From assembly GCA_019044685.2 (NCBI GenBank), contig JAGTXX020000011.1:1612001-1676000 (forward strand): 64,000 nt of DNA, in the 5' to 3' direction. Within the stretch, counting starts at the first letter, position 1. Every line of letters begins with the position of its first letter. The translations under genes and the position numbers were made by a program. The DNA is from Nannochloris sp. 'desiccata'. Its lineage: Eukaryota > Chlorophyta > Trebouxiophyceae > Chlorellales > Chlorellaceae. Below are positions 10,643 to 58,379 of this stretch, one piece after another. Under the pieces are notes generated by a model. The model made no database searches. It was given only the letters and a program-made list of their open reading frames with translations, and was not told the DNA's origin.

Positions 10643-10688
10643 CTTTCTTCTCAACCATTGATAGGAGAAAGGGCAATCAGAGCGAACA
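10643..10688 (-). repeat. retroelement outer B repeat (B2)
   Basis: 46 bp starting CTTTCTTCTCAACCATTG and ending AGAGCGAACA, repeated without visible difference at 11001-11046. It forms the cyclophilin-side end of the element. The first eight bases, CTTTCTTC, are the putative recombination core. Confidence 0.88.
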
Positions 10689-10885
10689 TAACACAAGCTC
10701 TGGCCCCATTAGTTTACATATATTTAATTTAATTACTGTAGTAAATCAGATAATATATATAAGAAAAACTAGCAATGCTAGCTAGACACAGAAAAACTAG
10801 TATGAGAAAAGTTAGCATAAATTTTTTTTTTTTTTTTTTGTTTGTCGGCGTTGGTGAGGAGAAAGAAGGGGAAAAGGTAGGGTGG
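10689..10885. other. spacer between B2 and A2 repeats, with poly-T tract
   Basis: About 200 bases of AT-rich non-coding DNA inside the retroelement between its B2 and A2 repeats. It includes a run of about 19 T near 10820-10839. Standard split-direct-repeat elements have A2 and B2 adjoining, so this spacer is a variation. The tract could be a poly(A) remnant on the minus strand. Confidence 0.5.
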
Positions 10886-11008
10886 GAGAAATAAACCTCA
10901 GATCAATAAGATTACACAAGATAACCAGCTGGAAGCTGTCCAGCTACCTATAAGCTGGTTGCTTCAGAAAGCCACAGCTTTCTTGCCAGAAAGCTTTCAC
11001 CTTTCTTC
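10886..11008 (-). repeat. retroelement A repeat, internal copy (A2)
   Basis: 123 bp repeat, apparently identical to 15533-15655. It contains nested inverted words (AGCTGGAAGCTGTCCAGCT, and AAGC/GCTT stems), so it can fold. It overlaps the following B1 repeat by the 8-base core CTTTCTTC at 11001-11008. Confidence 0.9.
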
Positions 11009-11046
11009 TCAACCATTGATAGGAGAAAGGGCAATCAGAGCGAACA
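11001..11046 (-). repeat. retroelement B repeat, internal copy (B1)
   Basis: Second copy of the 46 bp B repeat, directly downstream (minus strand) of the recombinase ORF, whose stop is at 11069. With A2 it makes up the internal complementary region expected of split-direct-repeat elements. Confidence 0.88.
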
Positions 11047-11068
11047 AGAGGTAAAAAGATGACCTACG

Positions 11069-12253
11069 TTAGTCCAACAGCCGACTTGATATTGTAATAG
11101 GTCGTCTGCCAGGACGATGGATCACTGTAGGAACGCTCCGAGGAGTGGGAGTAGCCCGGCGGTATCGCCTGCGAGCAACGACGGGCGGAGGGAGGGGAAC
11201 CATGGGTTCTGCTAAAAGGGGATTTGGCGAGGGATCAATGGAAGGTTCTTCAGCTTCAGCTGCTGCTAGTGCTGTGGGGACATGTTCTGCAGAAGCGATT
11301 TGATGTACGTAGCCACGTGCAGCAGAGGTGGAGAGCCAGCGGCCATGGGCCATCCATTGAGCTTCAGCAATATTAATGCTGGCTGCCAAGGTAGCACCTC
11401 CTACTCTCAGGGAGTGAGTACCATAGGTATCATCCAGCCCAATGGCGTGAAACAGTTCTTTAAACTGTTTGTGACAGCGGTTGTAGTCAATAGCGATCTC
11501 AGTGGGCAGAGAGTGATCAAAACGCATAAACACGGGGCGGCGAGTGCCACGGAGGCCGGCTCGAGCGAATAATTGAGTCAGCAGAGAAACCGGACAATAA
11601 AGCTTGCCAGGGCAAGCGGAGAAAGAAATGGAAGCGCCACGATGCAGTTGATCAGTTTTAGAATAGGGCAAGAAGATGGTAATCTTCCGTTGGGACATAG
11701 ACACATGATTGGCCGTGATGGCGGCCAGATCAGAATAGCGAAAAAATCCAAAGAAGCCGATGGACATAGCTGTGACCAGCATATGCTTCTGGAGGGAAAC
11801 CGAAGGGCCACTAAAGCGAGAAGCCAGCTCAGTGAGGTGGCGTAATGTCAGCGGAGAGCGTTTGCGTTTGGGGGTCTTCAGCAGGCGCTGGGCGCCTTGC
11901 AGCAGTTGCTTGATCAGAAAATGTTGAGTAGGAGATTCATACCCACAGAGCTGGTGTAAGGTAGAGATAGCATCTCTAGGGCCAGTAAGCACGGAGACAG
12001 TTTGGTTTTTTGCTTCAGCGCGTTGTAACAATGAACCAAAATAGAAAACAACAGTGCGAAGATCAGCTGGCACAGCACTGAGCTTGTGCAAGGAGCAGAA
12101 CGCAAAATAACCACGGAGATGGTTGTCATACTTAGTCTGAGAAGAGAAAGCGCGAGAATGAATCAGTGCTTTAAGCACAGGTTCCAGGAGTGGAGCCAAG
12201 GAGCCATTAGCTGCTAATTGAGGCACTAAGTGCGCGAGTTGAGCAGTCTGCAT
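11069..12253 (-). CDS. retroelement tyrosine recombinase (YR)
   Basis: Phage-integrase-type recombinase that would insert the circular cDNA by strand exchange. The open frame extends upstream to 12316, but the start MQTAQLAHLVPQ at 12253 lies just after a good splice acceptor (TTTCTTTATAG) and is preferred. The N-terminal SAM-like region contains TKYDNHLRGYFAFC. The catalytic set R-H-R-H-Y is visible: Arg in FGFFRYSDLAAI, His and Arg in YGTHSLRVGGATL, His in MAHGRW and the nucleophile Tyr in ARGYVH. A disordered Pro-rich tail ends PITISSRLLD. No disabling change was seen. Confidence 0.93.
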   Translation of the reverse strand: MQTAQLAHLVPQLAANGSLAPLLEPVLKALIHSRAFSSQTKYDNHLRGYFAFCSLHKLSAVPADLRTVVFYFGSLLQRAEAKNQTVSVLTGPRDAISTLHQLCGYESPTQHFLIKQLLQGAQRLLKTPKRKRSPLTLRHLTELASRFSGPSVSLQKHMLVTAMSIGFFGFFRYSDLAAITANHVSMSQRKITIFLPYSKTDQLHRGASISFSACPGKLYCPVSLLTQLFARAGLRGTRRPVFMRFDHSLPTEIAIDYNRCHKQFKELFHAIGLDDTYGTHSLRVGGATLAASINIAEAQWMAHGRWLSTSAARGYVHQIASAEHVPTALAAAEAEEPSIDPSPNPLLAEPMVPLPPPVVARRRYRRATPTPRSVPTVIHRPGRRPITISSRLLD

Positions 12254-12339
12254 CAGAGCTATAAAGAAACAGAGGAGAAATATTATGCGCGAACTGCATA
12301 GAGGGTAGGGTACCAACTAATTGTCCACACTCTCAAGAC

Positions 12340-14439
12340 TCATTTCAAATTGCGAAAATCAAGGCGCAAGGCCAAAACCTTCCAGTGAGGGGAGCCAACA
12401 GCGTGCTTGTTGCTATGCTTGGGACCAGGCAGAAAAAGGTCTGGAACGGTGGGAAGTTCACAATGATTAACGACAAACGAAGCCCACGGCTTGCCATCGG
12501 GCTGAAGCAACGGCCACCAAGGCCGGCCTGGCCACTGAGGGCAGATCATCGTGGCGACGGCTTTGCATTGACGGAGGTGGCGAATGACCTTGCCAATAGC
12601 ACCGAAAGGGGGATTGATCCAGCAATTCTCCCCAGCCCAGTTATGAGCGAAAGCATCGACACCACTGGTGGAGGGGCAGTGATATAAGGAATAGAACTGA
12701 TCACAGTGGTGGTTCAGTTCGCTAGCGAAAATATCAACAGTGTGGGGACCCCATTCGGGGTGGGAGTCGAAAATATGAAAGAACTTGGGGTTAAGCATCC
12801 AATCATCGCCGTCGTGGAGTTTGGACAAGATATCAGCGCGTTCGTTAAGGCAGCGGGGCACCCATTGAACAGTCAGCTCGATATTATGTTGCCAGCAGAA
12901 TTCGAAAATCTGTTTAACCACGAAATTAATAGCTGGTACTCGACTACCTTTAAGCATGATATAGGTTAAACCTAAATTGTCTACGTAAGCGCGGACAGCG
13001 GTAGGGGAAGTAGAGGAGGAAGCTACGCAACGCAGAGCGCGAGCCAGTGAGGTGAATACTCTGTCCAGGGCGAATGTTTCACGGAGCGTAGAAGAGGTGG
13101 CAGGGCCTTGCTCCCAGGGCTCAAAATAGCCTTGAGCTTCGAGCTCGTCACCGCGAAGGAGCCCATGGCCACCCCAGCCAAAATCACTGGCATCAGAGAA
13201 GATTTCCATAGTGGTGACAGAAGTGCTGCGCCAGATGGGAGTAGAGTTAAATTCGTGGAAGCGACGAGACCAGAACTCGAGCTCAGCTCGGGAGTCGACA
13301 GTATGACGCCAGTGATGGGAGAGATCGCGATAGTTGCTTAGTAGCACATAGCAGGCTCGAGTGTAAGCTCGAGTGGCAGTGCCCAAAACGACAGTCATGG
13401 AAGCGAGCTGACCCAGGAGCCGAGCGAGCTCCGAGCCACGGGGAGCCTTCTTATGCTGGACGATGGCCAGCTGAGACATAAATTCAGTGACACGCACAGG
13501 GCTGACTTGAATAGTGTTCCACTGAGTGTTGAAGACGAAGCCAAGAAATTGCTGAACAACAGCAGGAGCCAATTTGAGCTTCGGGATGGAAAGAGAAAAA
13601 CCAGCATCCTGGATATCGCGTAATACGCGACGCTGCACGAGCCCAAAAGGGATAAGAGCACTGGGATGAATAGCAAAGAGAAAATCATCCAGGTAATGAA
13701 GCAGGCGCCGGCCACGAGAGCGCCAGTGTTGAACCAGCACGCGAGTGACCTTGGTGAATACCCAGGGAGCAATGCAGAGGCCGAAGGGGAGAGAACGGAA
13801 GACGTAATACTGGCCTTGCCAGTAAAATCCCAGAAATTGCCAGAATGCAGGGTGAATATCAATATGGTGATAGGCGCTTTCCAAGTCGACTGTGAACATC
13901 TGGTCGCCAGGCTGGAGTACCGTAGGTGCATCAGCGACCCCTTCAAACCGGAATTTGTAGGGGTGATCAGCTTTATCAGGGATGATATGCTTATTCACAT
14001 GGCGGAGATCAACGATGAGGCGGTTTTTGCCTCGGCGAGGGATCACGTTGAGCGGGCTGACGATCGTAGGACGTTCAGCGACAGGGGTAATAGCACCAGA
14101 GAGGAGGAGGGCAGCGACAGCGGAGGAAACGAACTCCGCATGTTCAGCGGTGGGAGGATGATTTGGCTCCGACCAAGGCTCAGGAGGAGCTTCAGATGCC
14201 CAAGTCCAGGCTACACCGTGTTCAATCCAGTGAAGGACGGTTTTGGATCTGCAGACCTTTTGCCAGAAAGGGAGCTTATTGCGTAAAGCGTGATTCAGCT
14301 GGGGGTTGCCAGGCGGTGGTGGAGGCAGCGGCTGGTCAGAGGGATGAGAGAATTCTGCTGGAAAATCAGGTTCATCCTCAAGCAGGGCAGGGAGTTCTGA
14401 GAGAGAGACAATAAAAAGAGTGTAAGTTACACTGGGCAT
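12340..14439 (-). CDS. retroelement reverse transcriptase-RNase H
   Basis: A 699-residue polyprotein. The RT domain shows PLNVIPRRGKNRLIVDLRHVN, the first catalytic Asp in FTVDLESAYHHIDIH, FRSLPFGLCIAPWVFTKV and the active YLDD in LLHYLDDFLF. The thumb segment is QQFLGFVFNTQW. RNase H follows with FSDASDFGWGGHG, AYVDNLGL and WVPRCLNERADILSK. The C-terminal tail (TVDIFASELNHHCDQFYSLY, ENCWINPPFG, PQWPGRPWW) is the segment found after RNase H in DIRS-order elements. A splice acceptor (CTCTCTCTCAG) lies near 14400, so the N-terminus may come from an upstream spliced exon rather than the ATG at 14439. Confidence 0.94.
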   Translation of the reverse strand: MPSVTYTLFIVSLSELPALLEDEPDFPAEFSHPSDQPLPPPPPGNPQLNHALRNKLPFWQKVCRSKTVLHWIEHGVAWTWASEAPPEPWSEPNHPPTAEHAEFVSSAVAALLLSGAITPVAERPTIVSPLNVIPRRGKNRLIVDLRHVNKHIIPDKADHPYKFRFEGVADAPTVLQPGDQMFTVDLESAYHHIDIHPAFWQFLGFYWQGQYYVFRSLPFGLCIAPWVFTKVTRVLVQHWRSRGRRLLHYLDDFLFAIHPSALIPFGLVQRRVLRDIQDAGFSLSIPKLKLAPAVVQQFLGFVFNTQWNTIQVSPVRVTEFMSQLAIVQHKKAPRGSELARLLGQLASMTVVLGTATRAYTRACYVLLSNYRDLSHHWRHTVDSRAELEFWSRRFHEFNSTPIWRSTSVTTMEIFSDASDFGWGGHGLLRGDELEAQGYFEPWEQGPATSSTLRETFALDRVFTSLARALRCVASSSTSPTAVRAYVDNLGLTYIMLKGSRVPAINFVVKQIFEFCWQHNIELTVQWVPRCLNERADILSKLHDGDDWMLNPKFFHIFDSHPEWGPHTVDIFASELNHHCDQFYSLYHCPSTSGVDAFAHNWAGENCWINPPFGAIGKVIRHLRQCKAVATMICPQWPGRPWWPLLQPDGKPWASFVVNHCELPTVPDLFLPGPKHSNKHAVGSPHWKVLALRLDFRNLK

Positions 14440-14557
14440 TGATGGGACAATGAAAGGGATGGCTTAAGAGAAGCGGTGACTTGATAGAAAGTCAATCATG
14501 TAAAGAAAAATTGTGTTTTTATGAGGAAAAACAGTCTGCTGAGGCAGAATTGGTCAG

Positions 14558-15454
14558 TCATTTGTGCTGAGCTGCTTTCAAGCGAAAACAGTCTTTAGTA
14601 ATGTGGTTGGTTTTGCCACAGACGGCGCACCCTTCGGGAGTGGCGGCCTGCTCGGTCTGAGCAGGGCGGTGCTGGCCAGAACCGGAGCCACGGGCGCCGG
14701 AGGAACCGCCGCGCCAGTTAGACTGCGAGCGAGGGCGCTTACTGGGCTGAGCCTTAGCCGCATCCTTCAGGGCCTTGTCAAGAGCAGCGGCGTAGTCGCT
14801 GTCGTGGCCAAAACGGTTAGGCACCCGGTTAGCTTGCAGGTTGCGAGCCACCTTCTGCCCATGGGTGCCCAGCACGATGAGGTTGCGTATTTGCTCCTGG
14901 ACCACAGGGATCGCTGAACAAAGAAGGAGAGAAGTATTGAGAACTTATCGGTACGGGGGACCGCAGCCAGTACTGAGGACTGGGGACGAATGAGACGTCC
15001 AACTAACGGAGATTAGGAGAATCCCGAGTGAAGATTTGCAGCTAGTGAGCTTGGCAATAAGACAAGGGCAGCGAGACTTACCGATAGCGAGCTGAGCGCT
15101 CAGCGTTTCCTGGAAAGCTTCAGGAGGGTGGTCACCGGTGGTGAGCATGTTGGTCACTTGTTGGGCTGTGCCCAATGCGGTGTAAGCTTCGCCCAGGGAG
15201 CGAAGTTCAGCCCGCTTGACCAGGGAGTCCAATTGGACAATCTCTGCGTCAGAAGGAAGTTCACGACGCATGGCCACAGGCAGTGCGGGGAGTGGAATAG
15301 GGTCGAACATGAGGATCTCGGATTCCTCTTTTTCGGCAGCTTCCTTCTCGGCGGCCGCTGCAGCTTCGGCGGCGGCTGCCTCAGCAGCTTTAGCCGCGGC
15401 GGCATCAGCTCTCTTCTGCTGAGCAGCAGAAAGGGGCTTAGGAGTAGGGGCCAT
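14558..15454 (-). CDS. retroelement gag-like protein with zinc knuckle
   Basis: First ORF of the element, coding for the presumed nucleocapsid/capsid protein. Two exons, 15082-15454 and 14558-14913, join in phase 1 across an intron with donor GTAAGT and acceptor TTCAG, giving 242 residues. The N-terminus is Ala/Lys/Glu-rich and probably coiled coil. The C-terminus has an Arg/Gly/Gln-rich stretch and one CX2CX4HX4C knuckle (CAVCGKTNHITKDC). The joined reading gives AIPVVQEQIRNL across the junction without a stop. An intron within a retroelement gag is unusual but is supported by consensus splice signals. Confidence 0.8.
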
Positions 15455-15532
15455 TGCAGATGAAAAGGACAGTTGAGATCTAGATTTGAAGAAGTAAACT
15501 AATGGGGAAGAGCTTGCGTAGGACTTAGAATA

Positions 15533-15655
15533 GAGAAATAAACCTCAGATCAATAAGATTACACAAGATAACCAGCTGGAAGCTGTCCAGCTACCTATAA
15601 GCTGGTTGCTTCAGAAAGCCACAGCTTTCTTGCCAGAAAGCTTTCACCTTTCTTC
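15533..15655 (-). repeat. retroelement outer A repeat (A1)
   Basis: Copy of the 123 bp A repeat at the 5' (minus-strand) end of the element. It ends in CTTTCTTC at 15648-15655, after which host-like sequence begins (CCACCATTTTCTTCC). Confidence 0.9.
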
Positions 15656-16004
15656 CCACCATTTTCTTCCTACCACTGGTGGCATCTCTATCAAATTTAG
15701 TTCTTGCTAAATTCACGAAGAAGCTTGAGCGACTTAAAGACCGTTCGTGCTCAATTTAGTGTCAAAGGTTTCATTCTACTTTTGGCTTGAGTACTGTGTT
15801 GGCGAATATAACTGCTTGAATATACTTGTTATCTGCTTAAAATTCATTGATTGTTGCTTTTCCATTTAAATAGGGGTGGCCTGAAGTCGCGCTGGCGGCT
15901 TCTCACGATCCCCTAAGTCACCCTGTTGGGGTTAATTTGTTTTGTTTTGCTGTGTTTAATGTGACTGAAATTTACCTTCCCTTCCTCCTTCAAGGTTCAA
16001 TTAA
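15656..16004. other. intergenic, retroelement flank and transporter 3' region
   Basis: Non-coding sequence between the right edge of the retroelement and the stop codon of the SLC35F-like gene. It holds copy 1 of the structured repeated element at 15871-15933, and otherwise AT-rich 3' UTR-like sequence. Confidence 0.5.
15871..15933 (+). ncRNA. structured repeated element, copy 1
   Basis: A 63-base element whose ends match the copy at 43669-43730: TAGGGGTGGCCTGAAGT at the left, CTTCTCACGATCCC in the middle and CCCTGTTGGGGTT at the right. As plus-strand RNA it folds into an outer stem GGGGU/AUCCC, a 5x5 internal loop GGCCU/UCACG and an 8-bp hairpin with loop GCUG. A short linker and a CCC-UGUU-GGG hairpin follow. 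It lies about 70 bases past the stop of the minus-strand transporter gene, antisense to its 3' UTR. Function is unknown. That it is an RNA is inferred from base-pair-preserving differences between the two copies. Confidence 0.55.
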
Positions 16005-43312: not shown

Positions 43313-43668
43313 CTTTAATGATAAGCTAGCCGGCGAAATGCTGCAGTCTGAATGCAAATAATTTGTTTTGCAAAAGCGAACGGACTACCTCCCTTGCGGC
43401 ATGTAACCCGTTGCTTATCATATGAATACCAAGAGTTGATATTAAACCGGACAATGCACCACCATTGGCTTATAAGTTGGAACCTTGCGGCTGGCTGGGC
43501 TGGCTCGGCTGCTTCGTCCCCGATCAAGAGGCCGCCGCCCTGCTGATTGAAATTGAAAGGTTTCGGAAAAGTTTTACAAAGTTAAGGTTATCAAAAGTTC
43601 AAGGAAAAACTCATTTCTAATCTCAACATACTTAGTTATGTAGGTTAATCTCTTTATTACTTTTTACA
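43313..43668. other. intergenic region upstream of NARA5
   Basis: About 356 bases between the NARA5 start and copy 2 of the structured element. Probably holds the NARA5 promoter. Short overlapping frames here are not credible genes. Confidence 0.4.
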
Positions 43669-43730
43669 TAGGGGTGGCCTGAAGTTGCGTTTGTGACTTC
43701 TCACGATCCCTCGCGTTCCCTGTTGGGGTT
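43669..43730 (+). ncRNA. structured repeated element, copy 2
   Basis: A 62-base relative of the element at 15871-15933. The hairpin core GAAGTTGCGTTTGTGACTTC differs from copy 1 at five of twenty positions. Three are in the stem and all keep pairing as plus-strand RNA (U-G to U-A, C-G to U-G, G-C to G-U); the other two are in the loop. The flanking blocks GGGGTGGCCT, TCACGATCCC and CCCTGTTGGGGTT are unchanged. It lies 31 bases past the stop codon of the adenylyl cyclase gene, antisense to that transcript. Function is unknown. Confidence 0.55.
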
Positions 43731-43761
43731 TATTTTATTTAGTCAATACAGTATAATTTAT

Positions 43762-52602: not shown

Positions 52603-53664
52603 ATGTCCTTGCGGCGCAGCGCTTTTAGCTGCCTTAGAGCTGCATTACAACGATCACATAATTCAAGTGGTGGCTGCACAACAGTCATTTCTTCAGCAGC
52701 TATAGGCCTTCCACCAAGCGCAACAGCTTTACTTAGATCCTCAGAGTATGTGTCACCGAGCTGGTCTCGTATTTCAGCCTTGCAGTTGACTAATTTGCGT
52801 GGATTTAGTTCAGTGCCCCGGCAACATATGGCTCGCCAACAGGCTCAGAGAAAAGTGTCTGATCAGGGGATGTATTTGGTAAGATATATAGATTCTTGTT
52901 CAATATACTTGCAGTTTTTATGAATACTATCAAGGGAGGGGCAAGAAATGACCGTAGAAAAATGCATTATTCAATCTCCGTGATCTTGTGCATTCACGGC
53001 CCCAAAGAAAAATATAGTAAAATGCCACCAAAATAACCAGTGTATTCCTTTTTATTTGCTCCAGTTTGCCGTCGTAGTTGGTATGATCGGCCTTACCTAC
53101 GCTGCTGTCCCTTTATATCGCATGTTTTGCCAAGCAACCGGTTTTGGAGGCACAGTCAAAGAAGGACGCAGCGTTGAAGAAAAACTACGCCGGAGAGAAG
53201 AAGAACGCAATGAAACCTTAGAAGCAGCTGCAGCACAATGCCAACTCACTGTCAATTTCAATGCTGACGTGTCAGATGGTCTCCCTTGGAAATTTGTACC
53301 TACACAGCGGTCGGTCAAAATCCACCCTGGACAAAGCACCCTCGCTTTCTATACAGCTCACAATACCAGCGACCATGCAATTACAGGGGTTTCTACGTAT
53401 AATGTCGCTCCACAGCAAGTAGGACAGTATTTTAATAAGGTACAATGTTTTTGTTTTGAAGAGCAGCGGTTGAGAGCAGGTGAAAAAGTCGATATGCCAG
53501 TTTTCTTTTATATAGATCCGGAGTTTGCTACAGATGTTAGAATGCGTGGTATAGAGAATATTACGCTGAGCTATACGTTCTTTAAAGTGGCAGAAGATAA
53601 TGGGGATGATGATGAGGTCGTACAAGAGACAGTTGGCGGTGTTGTTAGGGACAGATGGGGATAA
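52603..53664 (+). CDS. COX11: COX11 copper-delivery protein, C-terminus replaced
   Basis: COX11 is an inner-mitochondrial-membrane protein that places copper into the CuB site of COX1. Two exons, 52603-52878 and 53065-53664, join in phase 0 (donor GTAAGA, acceptor CTCCAG), giving 291 residues. The N-terminus is an Arg/Ser-rich mitochondrial presequence (MSLRRSAFSCLRAALQRS). The membrane span and next segment are VVVGMIGLTYAAVPLYRMFC, then QATGFGGT. The copper-binding motif CFCF is in [12 protein letters not shown], followed by [15 protein letters not shown] and [11 protein letters not shown]. The last 208 bases before residues RDRWG are duplicated at 58139-58346, and the residues after GGVV come from unrelated sequence. 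The conserved fold is complete, so the protein is probably functional. Confidence 0.93.
53439..53646 (+). repeat. 208 bp direct repeat, COX11 3' end, left copy
   Basis: 207 of 208 bases match 58139-58346, exactly 4,700 bp downstream. The one visible difference is a silent A/G change (CAA/CAG) at 53445/58145. The repeat lies inside the COX11 last exon and ends after GGTGTTGTT. Confidence 0.95.
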
Positions 53665-58138: not shown

Positions 58139-58379
58139 GGTACAGTGTTTTTGTTTTGAAGAGCAGCGGTTGAGAGCAGGTGAAAAAGTCGATATGCCAG
58201 TTTTCTTTTATATAGATCCGGAGTTTGCTACAGATGTTAGAATGCGTGGTATAGAGAATATTACGCTGAGCTATACGTTCTTTAAAGTGGCAGAAGATAA
58301 TGGGGATGATGATGAGGTCGTACAAGAGACAGTTGGCGGTGTTGTTCCCGTGCAGGCAGCCACTACTGCCACTCAATAA
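58139..58379 (+). pseudogene. COX11 3' fragment (right copy of the direct repeat)
   Basis: The 208 bp repeat continues in frame to [19 protein letters not shown] and a TAA at 58377-58379. This tail is absent from the left copy and may be the ancestral COX11 C-terminus and 3' UTR. Upstream of 58139 there is no COX11 exon, so this copy cannot make the protein alone. It is read as a fragment left by the insertion or duplication event. Confidence 0.85.

Follow-up and report, generated by a model that had tools for sequence, protein, structure and literature searches.

A structured 3'-terminal module common to a likely Dualen/RandI-type LINE and a short SINE-like family in Nannochloris sp. 'desiccata'

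Two copies in the window and their relatives in the genome

A short element with a conspicuous predicted fold occurs twice on the plus strand of the window, the whole 64,000-nt stretch analysed here (G000:C11:1612001-1676000), and raises the question of what kind of RNA it belongs to. Both elements were present where the original prediction had placed them, with invariant blocks common to both, and they carry the only two exact occurrences of GGGGTGGCCTGAAGT in the 64,000 nt. As predicted, five positions distinguish their 20-nt hairpins (15883-15902 and 43681-43700), of which three lie in the stem and two in the loop. All three stem differences between copy 1 and copy 2 (U-G to U-A, C-G to U-G and G-C to G-U) keep the plus-strand pairs; in a comparison of these two copies alone, each is a one-sided wobble change.

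The distribution of the element was analyzed in the 21.55-Mb, 18-contig genome. The 15-base core, GGGGTGGCCTGAAGT, was found in 25 exact copies (14 + 11 by strand), while the reversed pattern, used as a control, gave none. With up to 2 mismatches, 126 places (64 + 62) were obtained compared to 16 (5 + 11) for the reversed control, and the copy number at this tolerance is about 110. A 76-nt query yielded 100 candidates; 40 were scored and all 40 matched. All-against-all BLAST of the exact copies (n = 25) revealed, among the matches listed, that the 3' end is fixed and the 5' end varies, as 5'-truncating reverse transcription leaves. A covariance-model scan of 88 sources, with a model of 13 alignment rows, gave 68 matches at E up to 0.1. 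By a letter test of the upstream 45 nt, 26 of these were LINE-end-like, 15, with L023 as a distant relative among them, resembled a short repeat termed family A, and 27, copy 2 among them, fell into neither class. Family A is ~490 nt long. A search of the genome with a 331-nt piece of its body gave 15 places; identity was 95-100% for the ten longest matches (296 to 331 nt, the query itself included). In a second set of core copies the upstream sequence is a different one, in which a protein frame ends.

The entire copy 1 (15784..15948, +) is a 5'-truncated member of family A, 98% identical to L005 from position -89 relative to the core. It consists of 89 nt of body, followed by the structured module (15873..15932, +) and a T-rich (GTTTT)n tail (15933..15948, +). 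Copy 2 (43599..43736, +; module 43671..43729, +) is likely the degraded and 5'-truncated 3' end of a LINE. It is 88% identical to L018 across -72..+69 (BLAST); its protein-frame end motif is mutated and fails the end-motif test that L018 passes, so the LINE origin of copy 2 is taken from L018, which has the motif. The model matched copy 1 at 15870-15939 (100 bits) and copy 2 at 43668-43736 (81.3 bits), both copies being among the rows from which it was built.

Several further repeats were noticed. Copy 1 lies 125 nt beyond the end of a likely DIRS/PAT-like retrotransposon (10643-15658, -). Its frame at 12340-14463 has an RVT_1 match and a Dam match just under the cut-off, and it shows split direct repeats of 126 nt (10886-11011 / 15533-15658) and 46 nt (10643-10688 / 11001-11046). 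Elsewhere in the window, a 208-nt repeat with 100% identity (53439-53646 and 58139-58346, 4.7 kb apart) flanks frames with sulfatase matches. Locus L004 (1363-1500) looks composite: 94 nt upstream of its module there is another family-A piece (-44..+1). Loci L016 and L020 have 3.4 kb in common at 98% between C10 and C13, with three module copies each.

Predicted fold and compensatory changes

In the predicted fold of copy 1, an outer stem is formed by GGGGU (15873..15877, +) and AUCCC (15908..15912, +), both nearly invariant. It encloses an apical hairpin of 8 pairs with a 4-nt loop (15883..15902, +), for which the fold prediction is joined by compensatory changes, and is followed by a 3' hairpin, ACCC-UGUUG-GGGU (15920..15932, +). 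RNAfold returned the originally proposed fold for copy 2, while the outer stem of copy 1 was shifted by one base; the proposed 5x5 internal loop was found in both copies with one extra pair placed inside it. Folding energies were lower on the plus than on the minus strand for copy 1 (-29.1 vs -23.7 kcal/mol; z -2.83 vs -2.59) as well as for copy 2 (-23.3 vs -15.2 kcal/mol; z -2.19 vs -1.71). Across the copies, the strands GGGGUGGCCUGAAG and CUUCUC(A/U)CGAUCCC are nearly fixed.

The 13-row alignment gave no covariation signal (232 and 233 of 500 shuffles reached the observed paired share), and therefore a set of 55 distinct copies was used. On the plus strand 95.0% of 859 cells were paired, compared to 84.5% for the fold of the complementary strand, which supports the proposal of a plus-strand RNA under structural constraint. 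Changes on both sides of a pair were seen in 16 cells (4.7 in shuffles; 0 of 500) and at five pairs (2.8 in shuffles; 20 of 500), where the rows are related to each other and their alignment to the model biases the counts in its favor. All but one of the 16 cells sit in the apical helix. Its arms read GAAGCUUG/CAAGCUUC in L088, L103 and L104 and GAAGUCGC/GCGGCUUC in family A, while in the main LINE the helix is short (GAAGC/GCUUC). The apical stem is held paired by compensatory change, in the LINE as in the SINE-like family, and the changing stem with kept pairing that had been noted in two copies extends to alterations on both sides.

In the upper apical stem, 65.9% of cells are paired on the other strand vs 91.5% on plus. 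The lower apical stem is strand-neutral (98.1% vs 98.6%), and the 3' hairpin pairs in 96.2% of cells on the other strand vs 93.8% on plus. The outer stem, whose 5' strand is biased by the core letters used to find the copies, is nearly invariant, and both it and the 3' hairpin hardly covary, which counts against reading the module as a recognition tail.

An alternative pairing has to be considered as well. The 5' arm of the 3' hairpin has a predicted second partner, GGGUGGC at the module start. This rival helix, GGGUGGC/G(U/C)CACCC, fits about equally well: in the 13-row set it reaches 98.9% pairing, and four diverged copies (L017, L021, L023, L024) are predicted to fold with it. In addition, neither fold is predicted for L016, and L007 does not fold better than its shuffles. 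These observations, too, count against the recognition-tail reading. It is conceivable, though rather unlikely, that the LINE has a two-state tail, in which the almost unvarying GGGGUGGC would have two alternative partners, GAUCCC, with which it closes the apical hairpin, and G(U/C)CACCC, which belongs to the 3' hairpin in the predicted fold. Binding of the dual-endonuclease protein might then switch the RNA between mRNA and template forms, and a single handle would serve several subfamilies of the LINE as well as a short rider found with two LINE tail types. The apical loop seems to tolerate inserts: L017 (1922-2018, -) carries UAGUG...CACUA, which is able to form a hairpin itself, and L024 (1932-2018, -) carries CUGCCAG.

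The LINE and the short family that shares its 3' end

The protein frames upstream of the module are represented by L085, a single frame of 2463 aa. An APE endonuclease (PF03372 at 322-553, E 3e-12), a reverse transcriptase (PF00078) and an RNase H (PF00075) were identified, as well as a 2A-like GIEPNPGP near the N-terminus. The C-terminus has an RLE-like domain, with CCHC, RH, PD and E columns (nearly) invariant in 12 relatives. A 12-sequence profile of this domain matched R2 proteins at E 1e-5 to 1.7e-5, with two weak stretches summed, and silkworm-type R2 entries only at E 0.18; the Pfam RLE search of the C-terminus gave no match, and its predicted structure (mean pLDDT 35) was left unused. 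From this domain make-up, L085 is likely a LINE of the Dualen/RandI type. The best protein match was a hypothetical protein of Nannochloris sp. 'desiccata', with 100% identity over the last 404 residues and 94% over the RT part. The RT piece is identical in three copies whose frames are still open (2365-2511 aa), which suggests that the LINE was recently active.

Downstream of the L085 stop codon follow 21 nt, the module and a short (ATTTT)n tail. A genome search with the C-terminal 403 residues gave 41 matches, 25 of which extended to the last residue, and in 24 of these the core was found on the same strand 25-29 nt past the last codon, among the cores listed. For the remaining match (C15:221440), the listed cores stop short of any 2-mismatch places on its contig. 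When LINE subfamilies are compared, similarity is in most cases higher in the module than in the final 120 nt of the frame (L085/L080, 90% vs 73%). Some pairs do not follow this, such as L088/L018, with many gaps (module 80%, frame end 84%), which counts against the tail reading. Subtelomeric LINEs (L025-L054), whose loci reach just ~1.5 kb past the RT stretch, gave no covariance-model match. Many near-identical reverse-transcriptase frames of another LINE group were seen near the contig ends of the genome and along C8; the best-scoring ones reach 1255 aa.

Family A carries the same module as the LINE on an unrelated body. Its tails read TAATTT(GTTTT)n or TCTTTT(ATTTT)n with varying n, apart from small departures in L001, L009 and L022. 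Two copies, L002 and L015, agree with L085 in their 3' hairpin and in the (ATTTT)n type of tail; the remaining copies examined have the TTTTG tail type or are broken. For the 17 family-A copies whose 5' boundary is defined, the terminal word of the tail recurred in the 5' flank above mismatched pairs (sum 88, p 0.00012); this value is indicative, as the test was tightened after a first, looser version (p 0.033). Flanking repeats of at least 6 nt were present in just 6 of the 17 copies compared to 19 of 272 cross pairs, the best being TTGCTGTTCA in L011. A clear flanking duplication was looked for around copy 1 and none was found. No pol III B box was present in L005 with up to 1 mismatch, a point against the tail reading, and ARAGORN found no tRNA in the window. 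Family A is therefore termed SINE-like; it is a short element whose 3' end also occurs on a LINE of its genome.

A viral or prokaryote source was rejected: the two-block pattern had 0 exact matches in IMG/VR and GTDB contigs. P0003 had no relative in IMG/VR.

Proposed role of the module and relation to known retroposon tails

The module very probably forms the 3' terminus of the predicted RNAs of a likely Dualen/RandI-type LINE and of the ~490-nt family, and likely serves as a handle by which the reverse transcriptase takes its template. It is taken as a template-recognition tail because LINE subfamilies and a family with an unrelated body both carry it, and because L002 and L015 match L085 in hairpin and tail type, the other family-A copies seen being of the TTTTG type or broken. 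The LINE protein would bind the module on the plus-strand RNA, nick the genome and prime reverse transcription at the tail, that is, by target-primed reverse transcription. Early stops would yield 5'-truncated copies such as both copies in the window, and family A would move by bearing the tail of the LINE.

The module could instead act mainly on the LINE mRNA, as an element for its 3' end or its stability (processing, export or translation), with the reverse transcriptase reading the T-rich tail only. Its position 21 nt behind the stop codon would suit such an element, as would the T-rich repeats that follow it in family A of either tail type. A short family with an unrelated body that carries the same module and both LINE tail types is, however, what is expected if the enzyme reads the module, and we regard a pure mRNA element as improbable. 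A double role, as mRNA element and enzyme-read tail, is possible.

The original prediction had favored a selected RNA. An independent ribozyme, small RNA or cis-regulator acquired by retroposons would explain the strong predicted structure and the copies with little or no known body 5' of the module (L009 from -3, L022 from -2, L004 from -10). Yet 24 of 25 LINE ends bear the module, among the cores listed, and T-rich tails with variable 5' ends are features of retroposons. The window gave 0 Rfam 15 matches at gathering scores, and a permissive Rfam scan of a full family-A copy reached a best E of 2.2; known ribozymes and riboswitches were rejected on these grounds. An independent RNA is thus very unlikely, and instead of a separate RNA gene or ribozyme the element is read as the 3' terminus shared by a LINE and a family of short retroposons. 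A match to a known transposon end had been named beforehand as a finding that would refute the prediction, and a LINE 3' end is of that kind. The highly fixed blocks might also point to a signal at the DNA level or to the terminal repeat of a DNA transposon. Since G-U pairs are kept on one strand only, and the ends are one-sided, carry simple-repeat tails and are linked to a reverse-transcriptase gene, we consider this extremely unlikely.

Read as a template-recognition tail, the module would be a compact RNA element, available in natural compensatory variants, that belongs to a LINE of the likely Dualen type, from the group with two endonucleases. For this group, the rule that the LINE enzyme reads the 3' tail becomes directly testable, because open LINEs, their subfamilies and a rider share one small genome. 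A model from the module also serves the recognition of such repeats in related genomes.

Titles and abstract openings from the literature search contained no description of a LINE from this alga or of a Dualen-tail fold. Dualen/RandI LINEs are described as combining APE, RT, RNase H and, at the C-terminus, an R2-like endonuclease in a single protein (PMC4640811). L085 resembles them in the first three domains and in its R2-like C-terminal signature, and stands apart from that description by its 2A-like motif. For stringent LINEs such as R2, SART1 and UnaL2, the 3' UTR is reported to be needed for retroposition, and SINEs borrow it (PMC3747384). The module appears to behave like these tails, being a 3' structure common to LINE and SINE with terminal simple repeats. 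It is larger (about 60 nt, two hairpins), is known here from sequence alone and gave no Rfam family match at gathering scores. Sharing of tails between LINEs and SINEs is already known in green algae: Chlamydomonas SINEX-1/2/4/5/6 bear tails of RandI/Dualen LINEs (PMC3747384), and the present module has no Rfam 15 match at gathering scores. Like family A, the SINEX elements are short retroposons of a green alga with a RandI/Dualen 3' end, a likeness drawn from the tabulated description. Their tails, (ATT)n and (CTTT)n, differ from (GTTTT)n and (ATTTT)n of Nannochloris, all being T-rich, and the Nannochloris elements are distinguished by a structured module with compensatory changes.
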